A DNA stretch of 27,647 nucleotides from a virus. Shown in pieces: positions 1,998-27,647 of this stretch; positions within the stretch are counted from its first letter, which is position 1; every line of letters starts with the position of its first letter. The notes beneath the pieces are model-generated. The model was not told the origin of the DNA, did no database searches, and saw nothing but the letters and a program-made list of their open reading frames with translations. The stretch is from positions 1 through 27,647 of IMG/VR virus record IMGVR_UViG_3300022926_000091; one strand, written 5' to 3'. Position numbers and translations under genes: made by a program.

Positions 1998-4900
1998 CTA
2001 TCTTGACATCAATCCACTTCTACCACTACTGGTATATGTTTTCTGTATTGTCTTTGACCGTTTAATAAGTTCCCTCAATACTTCTGGGCTTGTTAAATCT
2101 GGATCATCTGCATTTTCATTCTTAGGATCATTCATATATTCTATTACAGCTATACGTCTGTAGTCTTTTGGTATGCTGTTATACTCTGACAACGCCCTAG
2201 AGAATGGATCGGCAAGAGCCTCTGTACCTTTTTCTCTTAGTCCAGACTTAAACTCACTAAGCTTGCGTTCTAAGATTGGTTTTATCTGAAGCTTGACATA
2301 TGCATCTTCACTATACTTTTCTTTTACTTCAGGTCTTAGTGCTTCATAGTTCTTTCTGAACACTCTATCCTCTAGTGCAAGCATAGCATCGTGTAACATA
2401 GGCACGAACTTAGCAATCTCTTCATTCTCACGTGCAGCAACTGCATCAATGTCAGAGTTACTACCTACCTTCCACTTAGGTGTACCGTGCGCTATGAAGT
2501 ACTCACCAGTGTCGGAGTCACGTGGACTTAGGTTGATACCTAATGTAACCTTCCATGCAGCATCTGGACGTTCTACGTCCTCTGGGAACACAGTTACCTT
2601 TTCATCCATCTTTCTTTCAGCTTCAGCATCACGGAAACGTCTGTTGTAACTATCCATCAAACCACGTTTAACAGCATCAACTGCATCTTTAGGTGCAGGT
2701 TTTAGGTCTTGCTTGTACGTATTCTCACGTCCAAATGTTAGCTCTTGTCCACCTACATCCACATCTACAGGACCATACATTCTTTGTGCATCAATGAACT
2801 GTCCAAAGCCTGTTAGATAAGATGTAAAGTAATTACCTACAGCTTTACCCGCCGCCTCTGCAGCAGCCTGACTACCAGAAATGTCCATGCCATCTGCTAG
2901 TGACGCAATCTCTTCAATAATAAGATTACCTGTACCCGTTCTGAACGTAGTACCTATGAAAGTTTCTGCAAACTCTTTACCATCCCACCACAGCGATCCA
3001 AATGTACCTTCTTTAAGGTGCTTTAGAGATTCACCAATGTACAAGATTTGTCGCATTGGAAACATAGGAGATGTGTCTACTGCATTTTCACCTGCACCAA
3101 ACATCTTATAATCTTCAGGTGCATTTTCACTGGTTCTGTACTGATAGGCAGCACCGATAGCAGCAAGTCCAACCAAGTTACGTTGAATACCAAGCCTATC
3201 TTTTGGAGACATCTTGGTTAATTCTTTCTTACTTGGATTAACTATGTCCATGACCTTTTTAGTCAGGGGGATAGCACCACCTGCAGCATACTGCGCCATG
3301 ATTTCCATACTGTTGAACATAAATCTAGGGAACTCTACCACGGTAGTTAGTGGTATACCAAAGACTCTACGTCCAGTGATCATGTTAGTTAAGTCTTGGA
3401 AGAATTTATTGTCAGGTTGTTTTGCGTAGGTAACAGACAAAGCAGACTCAACAGCGTCATTGACTAGTGCAACAAAAGAACGTGCCTTATCAGGGCGTAC
3501 TGTGCTTGCATCGTTAAGTAGGTCAGGCAGTTTACCTTCAATCATAGTATCAATCAGGTCAATACCATATTCGTTTTTAGTAAGCCTACGTAGCTCACCA
3601 AGAAATGCACCACGACGAACCAAGTGTTCTTGCCATTGGTTAGTAGTGTTCATCATTTCAACAACGTCTTCTAGTGGGTTAAGAAGTTTATCGTTTAATC
3701 CACCTTCGCCACGTCCAGTAGCCTTCCTGATTTCGTTCAGGTTATCATACATACGTTTTGATTGTGTTTGAAACTGAGGGTTGTCTAGTATAAGATCAGA
3801 GAAACCTTTGGCTACATCAGGGCGAGAGAACACATATTTGTGTGAAGAGAACGCATCTTTCCACAGGTCTTTGTTTACTACAGCTTTAGCTGCGCCTACA
3901 AATCCACCTTTACCGTCTATTACACCGCCTGTTATAGGCTTACCAAACTCAACTAGGACTGTATCTATCATGTTGCCAAGCGAATCCATAGGAAGACGCA
4001 GTGCGGCACTTTCAAAGTTACGCATGGCTGTAGCAATCTGGCTAACCATTGCACCACGACGAACATTCTCAAGGCGTTGACCTGCCTGTGACATGCGATC
4101 CTGTACTTCCTGAAGCTTACGTGTTTGTATATCATTTACTTCACCAATAGGACGTACACGTTTAATCTGACTTGCTATGTTAAGAAGCTTACCTGCGTCA
4201 CTGAAAGAACCAATACTTGCAGACACGTATTCTTCAAATGACAGACCGTATTTATTTAGAACAGTAATCAGTTCCTCTGTACCTACAAGTTCTTTCTGTA
4301 GGGTAAGGTCTAGTAGTGTTTCTATGACACCTTTGTCTTTGTTTTTAAATACTGTACTGTTAGGGTATCTTTCCTTGAAGTCAGCAACAACCGCAACAAG
4401 TGCCTTTGCCTTATCAGGGTTTAGTACAGGAGAGATCAAGCCCTCTTCAGCACCAACAAGCATTGCCATCTGATCTGCAACGACAATTTCCCTTCCATCA
4501 TCGTCTACTTGAACGTCAAACAAATCTCGTCTAGTACTTTCACTAGCTTTACGTGCTAGGTCATAGTCTACTTCTAGTGAACCATCTTCTTTTTGTATGG
4601 ATATAAGTTTATTTTCGTCAATGATAGTGCCATTTGCATCACGAGCACCTGTGTTTATCTCGTGCTCAATGATAAGCTTATCCATTAACTCTTTGTTCTT
4701 ACCCGCCATTGCATCGGCAGCAATACGTGCATCTTCTTTAGACTGTAATGTGGCAAGCATAGCACCGCCATAGTTATTACGTCTAGCAACCTCAAGTTCT
4801 TTGTCTAGCTTAATAGCCCTTTGATAATCTTTTACCCACGTAGGTTTAACTTTTGTAAGACCACCGATAAATGCGTTGGTTTCCATGAACTCCATGAATG

Positions 4901-5812: not shown

Positions 5813-6907
5813 TTAACCTACTTTAGCAACAAATATTGGCATTTCTGGTACGTTTATATATACGCCAAGGATAGGGATAGACACACCCGTAGCTTCATCA
5901 GTTTGGTATGTGGTAAATACTGTACCTGTTTTAACATTATCAAAAGCACCCGCACTTGCGGCATTAGGAATTTCTAGTGGTGTAGTTTCTGCCGCACTTC
6001 TTGTAGCATAATTACGTAATTCATTTTCTACCATAGCTTTTTCAGAAGTTATTCGGTTAGTAATATAAGGATCACCAATATCCTGTGCAAATTGCCAACT
6101 ACTAGAAGCATTCATAACACCCTGATAAAGTGCAGCTAAACCTTCACCTACTCTACCTTCAAACTGTTGTATAAGTTCTTCATTAAAGTCTACCTTAAAA
6201 CCTTTAAGCTGTAGAGCTTGACCTTTAGTTTTTACAAGAGAGTTTTCAAACGCAGTTGCATCAGACACTTTTGTTATGCCCTGAAAACCATTGCCGCTAC
6301 TTTCAACCTTTTCTGCAACTGCTCTTTTGTTAATCTTAGTAAGCAATTCAGTTTCTTGTTTTTGTAAAGCGTCTAACTCTTTCTGTTGTTCCTCAGTAAG
6401 TGTACCTACAGACAACAATTTCATCTGACTTACAGCATTGGCGTTAAGCATAGTGTCAATGTCAGGCATAGTGGATTCACCGTACAATGTTTTAATTGCG
6501 GCATTATCCCATTGAATGCCTATTGGACCAACGGGTTTATCTGTGGCAGTGTTTAGTGTCTCACCTGTTTTTTCTAGTGATCCAGTTTGTGTAAACAAAC
6601 TGTTTACATTAACACCTTTTACAAAGGCTTGCTCACCTACAGACAGAGCTTGGTTATATGCACCCTCACCCATCTGTACAATTTGAGCAGCACTTTCTGG
6701 TGTGTATCCTTGAAAAGTTAATGCACCTATTCGTTCTTTAGCAGCATTTTCATCTGCCCTACGTTGATTGGCTGCAGCTACACGAGCTTTACGGACACGT
6801 TCTTTTTCATCTTGTTCTTCTTTATACAACTGTGCTTCTTTAGTCTTGATCATTTCAACCAAGTTATCAGATGCGCCACCGATAAATGCTCCAAAGTTAA
6901 ATGCCAT
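5813..6907 (-). CDS. Internal virion protein with N-terminal coiled coil, 364 aa
   Basis: A 364-residue soluble protein. Residues 1-20 (AFNFGAFIGGASDNLVEM) form a mildly hydrophobic Gly/Ala segment. Residues 22-65 are a highly charged K/E/R/A helix that should form a coiled coil. The middle is Gln/Thr-rich, and the C-terminus is a beta-rich stretch (SIPILGVYINVPEMPIFV). No known domain was recognised. The start overlaps the previous stop by one base (TAATG) and has GGAGG upstream. Flanking genes are all of the internal virion class, so I infer a structural or ejection role, possibly as partner of the 1269-aa protein made next. It could also be a tail-associated protein. Confidence 0.6.
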   Translation of the reverse strand: MAFNFGAFIGGASDNLVEMIKTKEAQLYKEEQDEKERVRKARVAAANQRRADENAAKERIGALTFQGYTPESAAQIVQMGEGAYNQALSVGEQAFVKGVNVNSLFTQTGSLEKTGETLNTATDKPVGPIGIQWDNAAIKTLYGESTMPDIDTMLNANAVSQMKLLSVGTLTEEQQKELDALQKQETELLTKINKRAVAEKVESSGNGFQGITKVSDATAFENSLVKTKGQALQLKGFKVDFNEELIQQFEGRVGEGLAALYQGVMNASSSWQFAQDIGDPYITNRITSEKAMVENELRNYATRSAAETTPLEIPNAASAGAFDNVKTGTVFTTYQTDEATGVSIPILGVYINVPEMPIFVAKVG

Positions 6908-7437
6908 TACTGCCTCCGTGCCATTAGACCTGTAGCTTCAGGCTCTTCTGTTTCCATCATAGGTTCTTCAGTTGGTTCTTCTGGTGTTTGCTCTTCAGCA
7001 ATACCACCAGTTTCTTCCATACGTTTCTTTACATCACGCATTGCTTTAGCAATTGTTGAGTCACGGAATTTACCTTGCTCAGGTTCTTCCATCTCTGTAC
7101 CAATCACATAGTCAACACCTTCTTCATCACCAACGTAAGATAACATTTCAATCAGCACTGGCATGATAAGGATACCCACATCAATACTGTGCTTACCTTG
7201 CATGACACCACCAGACTGTAAAGAGTTTGCGATTGTGGTAAGGGGAATACCAAGTTCCATTACCTCTACCATCTGATCACGAAACTGTGGCTCAAGAATA
7301 CGTGGAGCATAAAAGTCCATAGCTTCTTCCACTGTATTGTACTGGGGTGGGTGTTGCCAAGGACGTGCACCCAGTTCAGCAGTTAAGCTTTGTCCAGGGA
7401 TAGGAGCATTAAAACTCTTACGATAATTCTGTGCCAT
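6907..7437 (-). CDS. Conserved phage structural-cluster protein, 176 aa, unknown function
   Basis: A 176-residue protein. The centre (about 30-115) has helices with buried hydrophobics (EAMDFYAPRIL, DVGILIMPVLIEMLSYV). The C-terminal 50 residues are strongly acidic and Glu/Pro/Thr-rich (EEQTPEEPTEEP), probably disordered, ending in a basic ARRQ. It starts and ends with one-base TAATG overlaps, so it is translationally coupled on both sides. Proteins of this appearance accompany the internal virion genes of marine podoviruses. I cannot assign a function; a minor virion component or assembly chaperone for the large neighbours would fit. Confidence 0.55.
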   Translation of the reverse strand: MAQNYRKSFNAPIPGQSLTAELGARPWQHPPQYNTVEEAMDFYAPRILEPQFRDQMVEVMELGIPLTTIANSLQSGGVMQGKHSIDVGILIMPVLIEMLSYVGDEEGVDYVIGTEMEEPEQGKFRDSTIAKAMRDVKKRMEETGGIAEEQTPEEPTEEPMMETEEPEATGLMARRQ

Positions 7438-16126: not shown

Positions 16127-16846
16127 TTATACTTTCAATAAACCAAATGTATTTGGATTGCTATACTTTACAGTAGAACGTACATACTCATATGTGTTAA
16201 TTTGTAGACTACGCATATACTTAATGCCTTGTTCAAACTTTTGTTGAGACAGTTGAGCAGACTGATTGTCACCTCTAAATTGATAGGCATAATACATAGC
16301 CCCATCAGTAATTACATGTTTAAACTCTTGTGGTACTGTAGGTACATCATCATATAATTCTAACTCTACAGGATTACGATAATATTCATATACTAGTTCA
16401 TAAGCTTTATCAGGTGTAGGAAATATAATAAATTCTTGACTAGGTGTTCTACTTACGTATCTTGGTTTACCACGTATACCTGTATCACTATTGTACTCAT
16501 AGTCAGAATACTTGTCAAGATATTCTTGATATGTAATACTTTGCAATTTTGTAGTTGTGATATTTAAGCTACTATTACGTTTGATACGAAAACTATTCAT
16601 GTCAATTGTTTTAGCATCATAAGGATACCCATAACGTGTGACACCTGCAGTTAGTATGTCTTCTTCTTCTACGTGATTCCAAGGCCAACCAAACTCTTCG
16701 TGATTGATGTGACGAATAGCAGAGTTAACTGAGTCTTTAGCTGTATTATAATAACCTGTAGCTGTAGCAAAGTTAGAACTTGTAAGCTCTACTTCATTGA
16801 GCCTACGGTTTACTTCATTTACAAGTCCAAGAAAGTTATATGCCAT
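16127..16846 (-). CDS. Head-tail adaptor / tail tubular protein A-like, 239 aa
   Basis: A 239-residue, aromatic-rich protein starting MAYNFLGLVNEVNRRLNEVEL, a helical opening like those of gp4/gp11-type adaptors. It carries HINHEEFGWPWNHVEEED (near 47-65), a motif common to tail tubular A proteins of marine podoviruses, and FIIFPTPDKAYELVYEYYR in the middle (a beta segment often followed by a helix that packs on the portal). It continues into YAYQFRGDNQSAQ, where adaptors have a helix that inserts between subunits. AGGGA lies 7 nt upstream; the start overlaps the preceding stop (TAATG). Its role is to join the portal to the tail hub. Confidence 0.8.
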   Translation of the reverse strand: MAYNFLGLVNEVNRRLNEVELTSSNFATATGYYNTAKDSVNSAIRHINHEEFGWPWNHVEEEDILTAGVTRYGYPYDAKTIDMNSFRIKRNSSLNITTTKLQSITYQEYLDKYSDYEYNSDTGIRGKPRYVSRTPSQEFIIFPTPDKAYELVYEYYRNPVELELYDDVPTVPQEFKHVITDGAMYYAYQFRGDNQSAQLSQQKFEQGIKYMRSLQINTYEYVRSTVKYSNPNTFGLLKV

Positions 16847-21934: not shown

Positions 21935-23032
21935 TTACGCCAAGTTATATGCTGCAGTAACGATTGCTTCTGGGCGAAGAATCTTGCGACCGTATAGGTG
22001 CATACCACGAACAATATCTGCAAATGAGTCAGGGTCACGATATGTTTCAGTTTTGTTGATCTGCTCTGCAGTTGCAACGGCTGAATCATGACCTGCTACG
22101 ATAACACCAAAGTTAGAAGCGTTTGAGCCACCAACAGTTGATGAACCTGTACCTAGTGAAGGTAGGTTGTTTGAAGTGTAAACACGGAAGCCGTGTAGGT
22201 TTGACACTGACAACCCGTTCTGTAGTCCTGAACCACCGAAGTCGGCGTTCAATAGACGTGAATCTTCGTCTTTCAAGACTTCCATGAATACTGGGTCCAC
22301 AACGATCCAACGACCTTGTGTATCAACATTCTGTTGGTCCATCAAACGAGACATACGTGCAAGAATTTGCAACGGGAATGCGTTACCTGCAGTTGCAGAT
22401 TTCGCAGCAGTAGCACCACCTGCACGAGGCTCAATACCAATTGAACTGTTGGCTGAACCTGCAGTACCTGATGTGTTTGTAAAGTCAGATGCGTCTAGTG
22501 ACATAGAAGCCAATAGTTCCGCACCAACTAGGTTAGCACCATCAGAAGCAGTATCAATAGCCTTTGTGCCGTTTACAGTAGTGTTAACTGTGCTTGCATT
22601 TGCATGAAGCGCAGCTTGTGCAAAACCAGATAGGTATCCAAGAACTTCTTGGTCCATTTGGTCTGCCAAACGATATGCCGCACGATCAGATGCCAAGCTT
22701 TGGAAATTGACGTGACTATGAGCTTCCTCAATGTCGTCCACTTTGAACGCAAAGTAGTTAGCTTTGTCAATGGTCAATGAGAAATCCTCATCATCCAAAT
22801 CTTGTGGTGTGATCTGTGTACCACGATCGTATTGTTTCACGGTGATCTCAGGTTCTTTAATGATTTTAACTGAATCACCCATGTTTGCAATCTCTCCGAA
22901 ATAATCAGAGTTTGTGATTGCTTCAACAACAGATGCCTTGCGGAATGCAAGTTGCACCTGTTTGGAATAGATTACTGGACTAAAATTACCATTGGGTAAA
23001 TTGCCGTAACCCGATGCTGATGGAAATGCCAT
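21935..23032 (-). CDS. Major capsid protein, HK97-fold type, 365 aa
   Basis: Starts MAFPSASGYGNLPNGNFSPV. The N-arm is followed by SKQVQLAFRKASVVEAITN and GEIANMGDSVKIIKEPEITV, a stretch conserved among marine podovirus coat proteins. The spine helix region (about 98-135) contains DDIEEAHSHVNFQSLASDRA. An Ala/Ser/Thr-rich segment (about 135-225) may be an inserted domain. The core continues with GRWIVVDPVFMEVLKDED and the C-terminal RGMHLYGRKILRPEAIVTAA. A length of 365 is typical for HK97-fold coat proteins that use a separate scaffold, which is the previous gene. AAGGAG lies 8 nt before the ATG. Upstream is a 249-nt gap with a promoter and leader, indicating separate, strong expression. Confidence 0.9.
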   Translation of the reverse strand: MAFPSASGYGNLPNGNFSPVIYSKQVQLAFRKASVVEAITNSDYFGEIANMGDSVKIIKEPEITVKQYDRGTQITPQDLDDEDFSLTIDKANYFAFKVDDIEEAHSHVNFQSLASDRAAYRLADQMDQEVLGYLSGFAQAALHANASTVNTTVNGTKAIDTASDGANLVGAELLASMSLDASDFTNTSGTAGSANSSIGIEPRAGGATAAKSATAGNAFPLQILARMSRLMDQQNVDTQGRWIVVDPVFMEVLKDEDSRLLNADFGGSGLQNGLSVSNLHGFRVYTSNNLPSLGTGSSTVGGSNASNFGVIVAGHDSAVATAEQINKTETYRDPDSFADIVRGMHLYGRKILRPEAIVTAAYNLA

Positions 23033-23281: not shown

Positions 23282-24145
23282 TTACCTAGCTGAACCAGAT
23301 AAATCGTAAATAAAGTTTCCAGTGCGAATAGATTCCATGATCTCATCAGATCGTTTTTCGTATTCTTGTGGAGACATCTTCTGTACCTCAGACTCTTTGA
23401 TAGCCATTCCCGAAGTATCTGACTGAGGTTTGCTACGTTGATTCCGTGTTTCCACAGAACGTGCAGCATCTTTTGATGTGGATTTAGTTTTTTTAATACC
23501 ACGATCAGATTTGTACAGATCAATTGCACGAGCAGCAGAACGTGCGTCATTGTCATTTTCATACAATGCATCTTGTACCCATTTAGGTTGTTCCTCTGCC
23601 CAATCATGAAAGTCATCACTATCACGAATAGTGTCAAAGTCTGGGTGCAAACGCATTAACTCTGCTTCAGCTTTTTCACGTGCTGCAGTCTCACGCATTT
23701 CGTCTACTGCTTTTACACGATCTTCCAAATCTGCAGCTTGTTCTTTTGCCTTTTTAATTGCAATAGTTTCAACAATTGCTGCTACATCTGGATACTTAGT
23801 TGCCCAAGCTTCAATGTCTTCGTCTGACTTAGGTAGTCGGATTTCTTGTTTTGTTGCTTGGTTAAGCTGTTGCTCAAGTGCCTTAATACGATCTTCGTAT
23901 TCTTTTTCTTTTGTTTGCTGATGTCGGCGTAGATCACCATAACGTTTCTTAAAGCTACGTTCTTCAGCATTTGCAGGTTCAGCTTCTTGTGGTTCTTGTT
24001 CCACTGCTTCACCTTTTTGTTCAGCTATTAGCTGTTCAAGTTCTTCTTCTTCTTTTTGGATTCGTTCTTCGTTTGTATATTTACGATTGGCAAAAGCCAC
24101 TTTCTTTTGAGGCTGCATTTCTTCAGCCATAATTGTATCTGACAT
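23282..24145 (-). CDS. Capsid scaffold protein, 287 aa
   Basis: A 287-residue, highly charged and Glu/Lys/Arg-rich protein: an acidic coil (EERIQKEEEELEQLIAEQKG), then SFKKRYGDLRRHQQTKEKEY, which is the common opening of scaffold helices in marine podoviruses, and a long coil through about residue 105. The middle has KYPDVAAIVETIAIKKAKEQ. A basic segment (about 220-245, KKTKSTSKDAARSVETRNQR) precedes the C-terminal helix that would bind coat. It has no signal or membrane segment. Placed immediately before the coat gene, as usual. AAAGGAC sits about 7 nt before the ATG; the 72-nt gap ahead of it contains a short imperfect stem but no clear terminator. Confidence 0.85.
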   Translation of the reverse strand: MSDTIMAEEMQPQKKVAFANRKYTNEERIQKEEEELEQLIAEQKGEAVEQEPQEAEPANAEERSFKKRYGDLRRHQQTKEKEYEDRIKALEQQLNQATKQEIRLPKSDEDIEAWATKYPDVAAIVETIAIKKAKEQAADLEDRVKAVDEMRETAAREKAEAELMRLHPDFDTIRDSDDFHDWAEEQPKWVQDALYENDNDARSAARAIDLYKSDRGIKKTKSTSKDAARSVETRNQRSKPQSDTSGMAIKESEVQKMSPQEYEKRSDEIMESIRTGNFIYDLSGSAR

Positions 24146-24217: not shown

Positions 24218-26656
24218 TTATTTTTTACGGCTTGCAAGTCCACCTTTTTTGAAGCCTGTCTTAATACCCTTGGATTGCTGTTCAAGTTTTTCTTTAATTT
24301 TAGCACCTTCGGATTTTATTTTATCTACTTCAGCTTGTGATGCTCCACCTGCTTTTGCTTTAGAAGCAACTTCTGCAGTTTTTTGATCTGCAGTTTTTAA
24401 AGATTCAGTTGCTTTTTCTTGCATTGTTTTTTGCATTTTATCTGCAAAACTTGGGCCATCGTCGTCTTTATCTTTTCTTGGCTTACGTCTTTGCTGTCCT
24501 GGTTGATACGCAGTAGGTGCAGGAGTTGTAGGTGCAGATGGTTCATCATCACGTCCTCTGCCTCTACTTGATGATTGTGCTAGTTTATTTGTTAACTCTT
24601 CAAGTGTAGTACGGGGATCAAGTTTTTCATACACACTACGTCCAGTAATAGAAATAGGACTGCGTAAATTTCCTATATAATCTTGTACCTGTTGTGTTAC
24701 AGTTGATGTAGTAGACATTTCAGGTGTATATGCTTCTACTGCTAATGGACCAAATGCTGCTTTTGTCTGATAGTCTGTAATAGTAGGTGTTTGAGTACCT
24801 TCTTCTTGTTGTTTGGCTTTTCTGGCTGCTTGCTCTGCGTTATCAAAACCCCTAAAATTATTATAGAAAAGTTCATCGTTTTGAGCCAGAACTTCCCCTT
24901 CATTAAAATCTGACGTAGCATTTGTTTCAAGTGCTGTGCCTGTAGTTTCACGAATACGTGCACCTTGTTCTGCCATGTCTCGTATCTCTGTTGGAGATGG
25001 TGGTGTTTTAGGTGCTGATATAGGAGCTTGATCTTCAAACGGTATAGTTTCAACAGTTTCTGGTGCTACAGGTGCAACTGGTGTAGCAGGACCAACTTCT
25101 AGTTGTTCTCCAGATTCAGGAATAGCCTTTACTGCCTCTAATATTTCTTCACCCGATTTAGGTTCTAGGTTACCAAACGAAAATGCTCCCTTTGGTACAT
25201 CATCATCAGGTGAACCTAATTTGTAACCTTTAGCAGCAAGTTCATTTAAAACTTTTTGTTGTGTGTTTGTAGTTTTATCGTCAGGTTCATCTGGGTCTTG
25301 TGTAGCACCAAGACCTGCTCCTACTTTAGCAGTTACTTTTTCTGCTTTAGATAAACCAAGAGCATCTGTAACTGTTCCTGTAATTTCATCAATTACTTTA
25401 GCAAGTATACCTTTACCTTCATCTGTTGTCAAACGTGTTTTTATTTTTTCTAGTGCATCTAACTGCCCTTTAATAGGTGTCTTACGTGCTTGTGCAATTT
25501 TTTCGTCAAGCATGTCTACAATTTGTTTCTTTTGTTGTTTACTAGCAAGAGCAAGCATACCACCTAATAATGGATTAATTGCAACACCGATACCTGCAGC
25601 TACATTCCCATACGTGCTTGCTTTCTCTGCCTCTTTGATCCACATGTCTAGTGCTTTACCATCAGTGGCTGATGTGTCCATTCCAAAGCCACCCGCTTTC
25701 TGGAACTCTGACGGTTCTGGTGGTGGTGTTCTATCATCGTCACCACTATCAACTGGCGCAGCTTCTGCTTCAGTCTCTGTAGGCATTTGACCTGCAGGGA
25801 AATATCCCGCAGGAATTGGGTATACTGGCTCACCACCCAAGAATGGGATAAACAGGCTATCACCTGCTTCGTTTTTATATTCACGTACATCTTGATCTGA
25901 CGGATCAAACATAGGTGTTACGAAAGTACCTTGTTGAGCATGGATGACACCACCCCGTGCTTTCTTCTGTGGCTCTTCCTCTTCTTCTTCACCCTCAATA
26001 ATAATCAAGTCCATCATACCAAATGGCATATCATCAGGCAGTACAGCTTCATCACCATTACCCATCTGACCCATAGCTTCCATCTGTTTCAAGCCTTGCT
26101 TGGCATCTTGACGAATACGCATTAAGTTTTCAAGACCAATGTAACGTACTACGTCTGCAGGAAAAACAAACTCACCTTCACTGAGCATGGCAGGAATATC
26201 GTCACGTACCTCTTTACGTGTACTACCTACAGGTACTTCATTGCCCGATTCTTCATCAACCATGCCACCTTCATCACGAAGGCCACCGTCTTCAAAGAGT
26301 TCCATTTGTTTTTCTAGCATGGGAGTACCACCTTTATTAAGTCTTTTTCCAGAAAAATAATTTATAAACTCTTCTCTAGTAGGATTTTTTTCATTAAGAA
26401 AATTTAATATTTCTTTTGAGGTTGCCTTTGAAGGAATAGGCTCTGCTGCAGATTTATTTTTTTCAAACATATATTCTATTTGAGGCATAGATAATTCTTT
26501 ACCGTCTTTAAATGTAATTATATTTACTTCTTTACCATCGTATTCTTTGGAAGACAAATCCCAAGAAGGTTCCATTTCTTTATAGATACCTTTTTTCATT
26601 TCAGGTTCTTCTAAACTATGACTACGATCTCTAAAAAGTTCCATTTGTTCTTCCAT
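24218..26656 (-). CDS. Large virion-associated protein between portal and scaffold, 812 aa
   Basis: Recognised as a type common in marine phages but without an assigned function. The conserved block lies at about 113-200: MLEKQMELFEDGG, then DDIPAMLSEGEFVFPADVVR and LMRIRQDAKQGLKQMEAMGQ. An acidic run (222-228) leads to KARGGVIHAQQGTF (232-245), akin to the RGG motif in the 905-aa protein. A Gly/Ala/Leu segment (about 350-371, GNVAAGIGVAINPLLGGM) may be membrane-active. The remainder is Pro/Glu/Thr-rich and disordered, ending with a Lys-rich tail, FKKGGLASRKK. Residues 1-112 are an extension with distinctly low GC. Met113 (26320) has its own AGGTGG upstream and is a possible second start. AAGGAA precedes the first ATG. 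The role could be ejection or portal-associated assembly. Confidence 0.65.
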   Translation of the reverse strand: MEEQMELFRDRSHSLEEPEMKKGIYKEMEPSWDLSSKEYDGKEVNIITFKDGKELSMPQIEYMFEKNKSAAEPIPSKATSKEILNFLNEKNPTREEFINYFSGKRLNKGGTPMLEKQMELFEDGGLRDEGGMVDEESGNEVPVGSTRKEVRDDIPAMLSEGEFVFPADVVRYIGLENLMRIRQDAKQGLKQMEAMGQMGNGDEAVLPDDMPFGMMDLIIIEGEEEEEEPQKKARGGVIHAQQGTFVTPMFDPSDQDVREYKNEAGDSLFIPFLGGEPVYPIPAGYFPAGQMPTETEAEAAPVDSGDDDRTPPPEPSEFQKAGGFGMDTSATDGKALDMWIKEAEKASTYGNVAAGIGVAINPLLGGMLALASKQQKKQIVDMLDEKIAQARKTPIKGQLDALEKIKTRLTTDEGKGILAKVIDEITGTVTDALGLSKAEKVTAKVGAGLGATQDPDEPDDKTTNTQQKVLNELAAKGYKLGSPDDDVPKGAFSFGNLEPKSGEEILEAVKAIPESGEQLEVGPATPVAPVAPETVETIPFEDQAPISAPKTPPSPTEIRDMAEQGARIRETTGTALETNATSDFNEGEVLAQNDELFYNNFRGFDNAEQAARKAKQQEEGTQTPTITDYQTKAAFGPLAVEAYTPEMSTTSTVTQQVQDYIGNLRSPISITGRSVYEKLDPRTTLEELTNKLAQSSSRGRGRDDEPSAPTTPAPTAYQPGQQRRKPRKDKDDDGPSFADKMQKTMQEKATESLKTADQKTAEVASKAKAGGASQAEVDKIKSEGAKIKEKLEQQSKGIKTGFKKGGLASRKK
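26298..26649 (-). repeat. 13-nt direct repeats flanking the AT-rich 5' extension
   Basis: AACAAATGGAACT occurs at 26649-26637 and at 26310-26298, 339 nt (113 codons) apart, encoding Q-M-E-L-F in both places (residues 4-8 and 117-121). The residues around them (MEEQMELFRD, MLEKQMELFED) are also alike. The DNA between is about 28% GC by hand count over 26341-26640, against about 44% just downstream. Confidence 0.7.
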
Positions 26657-26666
26657 AGTAATTTCC

Positions 26667-26882
26667 TTATTGAGATTTTAATACTTCATCTCGTAGTAAC
26701 TTCAGCCTACGTAACTGATAGATAGCACCCTGTGCTCTATGAACTGCAACAAGTTCACTAGTTTGTTCCATTGCACGATGCTGTTGTGCAATTATTGTGT
26801 CTATGTAGTCTTCAAACTTAGCCCATTGGGCTTGGTTGCTGACCAGACCCTTGAGCTTGTTGAGGTGCTCCCTGTCCTGCAT
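26667..26882 (-). CDS. Small helical protein overlapping the portal 3' end, 71 aa
   Basis: A charged, all-helical protein, MQDREHLNKLKGLVSNQAQW, with a long amphipathic helix containing FEDYIDTIIAQQHRAMEQTS and ending RRLKLLRDEVLKSQ. It shares 65 nt with the end of the portal gene in another frame. The frame extends two codons further to a GTG at 26888, but AAGGA at 26893-26897 is better placed for the ATG at 26882. Small genes of this sort are common after the portal of marine podoviruses, possibly as assembly factors; no family is assigned. Confidence 0.6.
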   Translation of the reverse strand: MQDREHLNKLKGLVSNQAQWAKFEDYIDTIIAQQHRAMEQTSELVAVHRAQGAIYQLRRLKLLRDEVLKSQ

Positions 26883-27647
26883 TACCACTAAATCCTTGTT
26901 CTTGCGGTGTTGGTGCTTGGCCTACGCCAATGTTACCGCCACCTGCTCCCGATGTATCCATTGGGTTTGCCCCTGCAGGTGCAGGTGCTCCCTCTGGCGT
27001 TGGCTGTTGTGCTTGCATACCTTTCATAAGTTCTGCTTGCAATGCAGCCTCGTCCATATTGTTAGTTACTTTGTCGGGATCAAGGTCAAGAGACTTTGCA
27101 ATCTCACGAATAATGTATTGGAACTTAGCAAACGGTGCAAGTGCAGGGTTGGATGATACTTGCAAGAATTGCATTAGTCGTTGACTACGTACTTCGTTAG
27201 CCATCAGACTTTCAGTTCCACGTGCTTTAACTTCTAGGTCACCACGCATTTCTGGATCAAAGTCAAACTGCATATTAAAGCGGAATAGACCTTCGCCCAT
27301 TGGACGTAGTAAGTAGTCGTCAATGTTTTTTATTACATTTTTGATACCGCCACTGGCAGCACCCATTAGCATACTGATACCACTAGCTGTACGGCCTACA
27401 CCTGACACACCAGTTTGCCCGTGTGCAAATGATGGGAAACCTGTGGATTCATCAGCTAGTACTCGTGCCTTGTCAAATAGTTGTAAGTTCTCACCTGCAA
27501 CATTCGGGAACTTAGTGCCAAAGATAGCTTGTCCTGGTGCACCACCTTGTCTACGGAATACTTTGCCTGGGTATACTGATAAGTCTTGGCCTGGAACTAG
27601 GTTAGTTTCATCAACCTCAATCAATAGGTTACCAGATAATACAGCAT
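26818..27647 (-). CDS. Portal protein, P22-like, C-terminal part
   Basis: The frame is open to the right edge, so the gene is 5' truncated; a possible TTG start at 27624 is internal, since coding sequence AVLSGNLL precedes it. About 275 residues remain. They include QAIFGTKFPN, then GQTGVSGVGRTASGISMLMG and GGIKNVIKNIDDYLLRPMGE, a block conserved in the portals of marine podoviruses of the P22 portal family. The last 70 residues are Gln/Pro/Gly-rich (QGAPQQAQGSGQQPSP) and disordered. The portal forms the dodecameric DNA entry ring. The first gene of the visible structural array; terminase would lie further right, outside the window. Confidence 0.85.
   Translation of the reverse strand, partial: AVLSGNLLIEVDETNLVPGQDLSVYPGKVFRRQGGAPGQAIFGTKFPNVAGENLQLFDKARVLADESTGFPSFAHGQTGVSGVGRTASGISMLMGAASGGIKNVIKNIDDYLLRPMGEGLFRFNMQFDFDPEMRGDLEVKARGTESLMANEVRSQRLMQFLQVSSNPALAPFAKFQYIIREIAKSLDLDPDKVTNNMDEAALQAELMKGMQAQQPTPEGAPAPAGANPMDTSGAGGGNIGVGQAPTPQEQGFSGNAGQGAPQQAQGSGQQPSPMG

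Follow-up and report, generated by a model that had tools for sequence, protein, structure and literature searches.

An N-terminal module site on the portal-adjacent protein of HMO-2011-type marine phages and its probable role in carrying cargo

The N-terminus of a conserved, portal-adjacent phage protein is almost certainly a recombinational plug-in site, as its sequence variation reveals, such that phages gain, lose or stack in-frame modules right ahead of the core start (Met-xx-QMELF), with each module ending in a linker of the form (F/L)N(K/E)GGxx. We found this site through an 812-aa open reading frame (ORF) in the window, that is, the whole 27,647-nucleotide stretch of IMG/VR record IMGVR_UViG_3300022926_000091 analyzed here, where residues 1-112 are one such module. 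We further consider it fairly probable that the protein is a virion-associated carrier in HMO-2011-type phages, with this portal-adjacent N-terminal site taking up cargo by recombination.

The window and the isolates have the same gene order (portal, 812-aa gene or ortholog, scaffold position, coat protein), an order already annotated for Roseobacter phage CRP-1 and Puniceispirillum phage HMO-2011, and tblastn with the 812-aa protein matched both phages within residues 99-296 (E 3e-49 and 5e-38, respectively). Orthologs of its core are CRP1_gp49, HMO-2011 N386_gp49 and CRP9_gp54, all annotated as hypothetical proteins. Because the orthologous protein and the gene order are common to CRP-1 and HMO-2011, we assign the window to the HMO-2011-type marine phages, which are described as dominant and widely distributed in the ocean (PMC9038755), and the 812-aa ORF to their portal-adjacent gene. 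In an alignment of relatives Met113 is the first residue of the conserved core, which opens with M-x-x-QMELFEDGGL(R/K)DEGG...DDIPAMLSEGEFV, and a Pfam scan of the 812-aa protein returned only Pre_tape_measure (below cut-off) and LIP, with no MuF domain found.

Table 1. Features of the 812-aa ORF and its neighborhood (positions in the window).
Feature	Position	Strand	Basis
812-aa ORF, portal-adjacent gene	24218-26656	(-)	open throughout; protein starts MEEQMELFRD
Met113 codon of the 812-aa ORF	26320-26318	(-)	translation
N-terminal extension, residues 1-112	26321..26656	(-)	translation, composition, AlphaFold2, dN/dS
Linker KGG-TP-Met113, joining module to core; candidate start inside the gene (AAAGGTGG then ATG)	26318..26336	(-)	conserved junctions of relatives
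Conserved core, 700 aa from Met113: GG motifs, DDIPAMLSEGEFVFPADVV block, C-terminal tail GGLASRKK	24218..26320	(-)	relatives
Upstream 13-nt repeat copy AACAAATGGAACT (EQMELF)	26637..26649	(-)	ORF nt 8-20; compared with L006/L007
Downstream 13-nt repeat copy AACAAATGGAACT (KQMELF), start of conserved core	26298..26310	(-)	ORF nt 347-359; core start of relatives
Portal protein gene, 3' part, upstream neighbor	26818..27645	(-)	position homologous to annotated portal in CRP-1 and CRP-345; tblastn against relatives
Small linker ORF ending ...LRDEVLKSQ*, between portal and 812-aa gene	26667..26888	(-)	left exchange breakpoint near ORF end
Scaffold-position gene: hypothetical protein between 812-aa gene and coat protein	23282..24145	(-)	same position as CRP1_gp47
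Coat protein position	21935..23032	(-)	same position as putative coat protein in CRP-1/HMO-2011

Among 222 non-redundant relatives, counted from similarity-ranked scans and hence not an abundance estimate, 126 are extended in frame at the N-terminus by about 50-1290 aa, about 84 have an ORF that starts at the core itself, and nine are cut by a contig end. A sequence-only reading of the window had proposed that residues 1-112 are an in-frame cassette set ahead of a normal gene with Met113 as its original start, and the relatives bear this out: many close ones (L006, L007, L010, L011-L013, L016, L018, L021 and others) begin at the position equivalent to Met113 and others have unrelated modules at that same site, so that the homologues do not all share the 112 residues. 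Judged by these comparisons, what had been described as a single case is an example of a general phenomenon across relatives. The extensions represent about 73 full-length types, yet 107 of the 126 are linked via common segments of at least 60 aa, and their domains therefore appear to be reused in different combinations. From module to core the junction follows the consensus (F/L)N(K/E)GG-xx-M-xx-QM; 117 junctions have a GG with the core QM signature no more than about 14 residues after it, and an ATG lies between the two in 110 of these but is absent from seven.

The two copies of AACAAATGGAACT at the ends of the extension, exactly 339 nt apart, were located in the ORF where the sequence-only reading had placed them, and they constitute its longest exact repeat. 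As standalone evidence of insertion the repeat was rejected, given that some exact 13-mer repeat occurs in 165 of 500 codon-shuffled versions of the ORF (about a third). What gives it meaning is that both copies fall on the conserved start signature of the core and that this signature recurs inside the longer extensions of seven relatives (e.g., GGVAIDKQMKML in L071 and GGVAEQMEMF in L114). The N-terminus of the window protein, MEEQMELF, is a footprint of the kind seen in those seven, and the upstream copy is likely the footprint of an old core start, such that the repeat likely exists because the module lead still begins with a copy of it. Two module-free relatives (L006 and L007) have the same AATAAGGAA context ahead of the start as the window, followed directly by the core.

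The AT-richness of residues 1-112, originally a hand count of 28% against 44% G+C, held up on proper calculation, with 29.2% G+C in codons 1-112 versus 41.1% in the remaining ORF (z = -5.3 relative to random sets of 112 codons from the same ORF) and only 0.3% of 336-nt windows across the whole stretch being as G+C-poor. A second AT-rich trough lies at 16261-16644 (30.7-31% G+C over 336 nt), inside the ORF at 16127-16846 (-). Such composition, together with the lack of a database family, is what one would expect of an assembly or annotation artefact or of a non-coding AT-rich insertion open by chance, but we give that explanation virtually no chance, as conservation already refutes it: the extension is identical in independent IMG/VR contigs (the window, or L001, as well as L002 and L027) and has homologues at 69-75% identity. 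Against L037/L086 dN/dS is about 0.2, and residues 1-112 are therefore, by this estimate, under purifying selection.

The module itself would comprise a roughly 75-residue beta-hairpin/helix domain and a disordered lead that begins with the old core-start copy. AlphaFold2, run on seven sequences, predicted a beta hairpin plus helices with disordered ends. In the window, residues 1-29 are probably disordered, residues 30-104 form the small predicted domain (strands 33-39, 42-48 and 54-56; helices 57-66, 78-90 and 94-103) and residues 105-112 the linker LNKGGTP, with pLDDT of about 80 over residues 31-60 and 81-100. A structure search with the model (pLDDT 65) gave no PDB match, and no known family was identified for the extension in Pfam, in PHROGs or by tblastn in INPHARED. 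We tentatively place it in a wider small-domain family that HHalign reaches only by way of an intermediate (79%, then 97.8%, then 99.5%, the first link being partly the common linker). A homing endonuclease or intein was also considered and dropped, as scans of the 112 inserted residues gave no endonuclease or splicing family.

An HMM of residues 30-112 detected the same domain elsewhere, a search that the sequence-only reading had called for. It forms the sole extension in L205, precedes another module in L215 (flanks like those of L205), sits at the C-terminal end of the long extensions of L109 (1286 aa), L110 (1124 aa) and L147, and is also present in L117 and L120; in L110 it shares one extension with LPD23. 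Between L037 (3365-3847) and L086 (3431-3703), otherwise closely similar phages, there is a 210-nt in-frame indel within the module (about residues 8-77 of L037), and modules therefore seem to be mosaic themselves.

Gain and loss can be seen in five pairs of phages whose flanks are 94-99% nucleotide-identical on both sides and that differ by module presence (L047/L059, L016/L017, L006/L004, L024/L031 and L046/L056). The window and L014 differ by only 2 mismatches across about 400 nt of module tract (99.5% identical). This tract opens about 30 nt ahead of the ORF start and closes about 33 nt inside the core; the flanks outside it are about 80-92% identical. Synonymous divergence reaches 0.73 in the core and is close to 0 in the module. 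The window's module has therefore moved recently between phages, with breakpoints in conserved flanks. Transfer would proceed by homologous recombination, on the left in the DEVLK end of the linker ORF and on the right in the QMELFEDGG start of the core.

Scans of 66 representative extensions against Pfam, NCBIfam and PHROGs revealed sister modules of recognizable families, namely LPD23 (6), Hydrolase_2/SleB, phage tail lysozyme, NlpC/P60, TIGR02594 (3), LysM (2), DUF6782 (a putative metallopeptidase family), DUF7178 and several endolysin families. Among isolates, the CRP-2 extension holds a cell-wall hydrolase (PF07486, E 1.3e-11) and that of CRP-9 a TIGR02594-type domain plus another module. 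In L071 a second extension includes HELRH, which by eye reads as a zincin-like motif. A 550-aa sister module has a predicted fold resembling a BFVD entry named large polyvalent protein associated; its model had no PDB match and matched only viral polyvalent-type entries. The DUF7178 module is fused to the core in CRP-212 (L098) and encoded as a separate ORF directly upstream in CRP-738 (L100), which makes these two phages a natural fused/unfused comparison.

That same arrangement could be taken to mean that a small upstream ORF and the core are two separate genes fused by loss of a stop codon, the fusion being neutral. We regard this as very unlikely, considering that in-frame fusion is seen in 126 of 222 relatives, mostly via the common GG linker with the core start kept, that recent exchange spans the junction, and that simple stop loss leaves the core-start copy at the 5' end of the module unexplained. 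The module could instead be an adapter for particle structure or assembly, for example a packaging signal or a spacer touching the scaffold or portal, and not host-acting cargo; this is less improbable, though still unlikely. The window's module is small and without an enzymatic family, and its domain often lies directly beside the core, including at the C-terminal end of very long extensions (L109, L110, L147, L117 and L120), as an adapter might. About two fifths of relatives, however, have no module and near-identical phages differ in it, which argues that it is dispensable for assembly, and sister modules are clearly enzymatic.

The junction also bears on whether one gene yields two proteins. 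An internal start at Met113 would make more of a core-only product than of the long one, with the linker kept for translation (AAAGGNGG, 6-9 nt, ATG), a scheme that is compatible with a carrier and that we entertain as a tentative minority possibility. The Shine-Dalgarno (SD)-like sequence reported ahead of Met113 is present: AAAGGTGG gives a duplex of -8.5 kcal/mol, versus -6.2 for AAGGAA before Met1. Across fused genes 110 of 117 linkers retain the ATG, the spacer being 6 nt in 63, and SD duplex energy at the core Met has a median of -7.2 versus -0.4 at other internal Mets. Yet other K/E/Q-GG sites are equal or stronger (-8.3), since K/E-G-G codons yield the SD-like signal automatically; GGA, the codon giving the best SD, is not favored at the first Gly, seven linkers lack the ATG, and the Met may have been kept because fusion was recent. 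A two-product gene is thus a possible candidate, with support no greater than the amino-acid linker alone gives.

Returning to the carrier, the core would be packaged with the head and the module carried into the host or periplasm at ejection, with the GG linker presumably acting as a spacer or processing site. The window's front piece is then probably cargo carried by the virus particle. What the sequences themselves document is that the site is polymorphic with a precise junction, that the module was exchanged recently and is under purifying selection, and that sister modules hold enzymatic or polyvalent domains; a literature search for virion proteomics of the 812-aa protein or of this phage group found none. 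Counting against a carrier, many of the modules are small, perhaps structural adapters and not effectors, the window's module has no known family or solved fold, and the core has no MuF domain.

The opposite end of the protein varies as well. Short basic C-terminal tails are alike in three window ORFs (GGLASRKK, 24218-24250 (-); GLMARRQ, 6907-6930 (-); SGLMSR, 1998-2015 (-)), and a tail of that kind occurs in 86 of 189 complete core proteins of relatives; it could be a packaging or processing signal. GGLASRKK ends the core in many relatives, a Cys-containing CCFIMLEARYG...RYRDE domain is found in CRP-345 (L092) and CRP-13 (L097), and HMO-2011 has a different C-terminal domain again. Given this variability, both ends of the carrier protein may be swappable. 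Directly after the carrier gene, CRP-345 (L092:7204-7908) and CRP-13 (L097:6249-6944) have a methyltransferase gene, an insertion that suggests a second variable spot downstream.

Among known systems, MuF-domain proteins and MuF polymorphic toxins (Mu gp30, SPP1 gp7; Jamet et al. 2017, PMC5576092) likewise belong to the DNA packaging/head module and combine a conserved carrier with swappable domains, and the 812-aa gene also adjoins the portal. The toxins among them are known from temperate phages of Firmicutes. The 812-aa gene differs in having no MuF domain and in being variable at the N-terminus rather than, as in MuF, the C-terminus; a Pfam scan of the window protein gave no toxin family, and no toxin/immunity pair was identified. 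Polyvalent proteins are multidomain phage proteins encoded near virion genes that mix peptidoglycan-, protein- and nucleic-acid-targeting domains, and MuF, in which a head protein is joined to effector domains, has been cited alongside them (Iyer et al. 2017, PMC5512222). The 812-aa gene resembles these in lying near late virion genes, between the portal and scaffold/coat positions, and several sister extensions hold peptidoglycan hydrolase, metallopeptidase and LPD domains. Two or more conflict-type domains share a polypeptide in L110 (LPD23 with the window's domain) and CRP-9 (TIGR02594 with another module), but the Pfam scan gave none in the window protein, whose own extension lacks a recognized polyvalent domain. 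Unlike polyvalent proteins, this system has a defined carrier core, a single plug-in point, a conserved GG-xx-M-xx-QM junction, and module presence/absence between near-identical phages. The morphogenesis module of the HMO-2011-type group is reported to have very few insertions and deletions (PMC8528129), and in the literature on this group, including that study, we found no mention of a plug-in site.

A broader proposal, which we hold as doubtful, is that this portal-adjacent virion protein is a general cargo-loading platform of a dominant marine phage group and a carrier class distinct from MuF, in which (F/L)N(K/E)GG modules would be appended, stacked or swapped at the N-terminus by flank recombination, packaged with the head and freed in the host by cleavage close to or at the GG, while the retained internal start would yield core-only copies. 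The gene is annotated only as hypothetical in phages described as dominant in the ocean (PMC9038755), and its hypervariable N-terminal site, with peptidoglycan hydrolases, LPD and unknown modules, offers a catalogue of candidate early-infection or counter-defence functions. The GG linker provides a simple handle for mining new modules, and the near-isogenic natural pairs with and without a module make the site directly testable.
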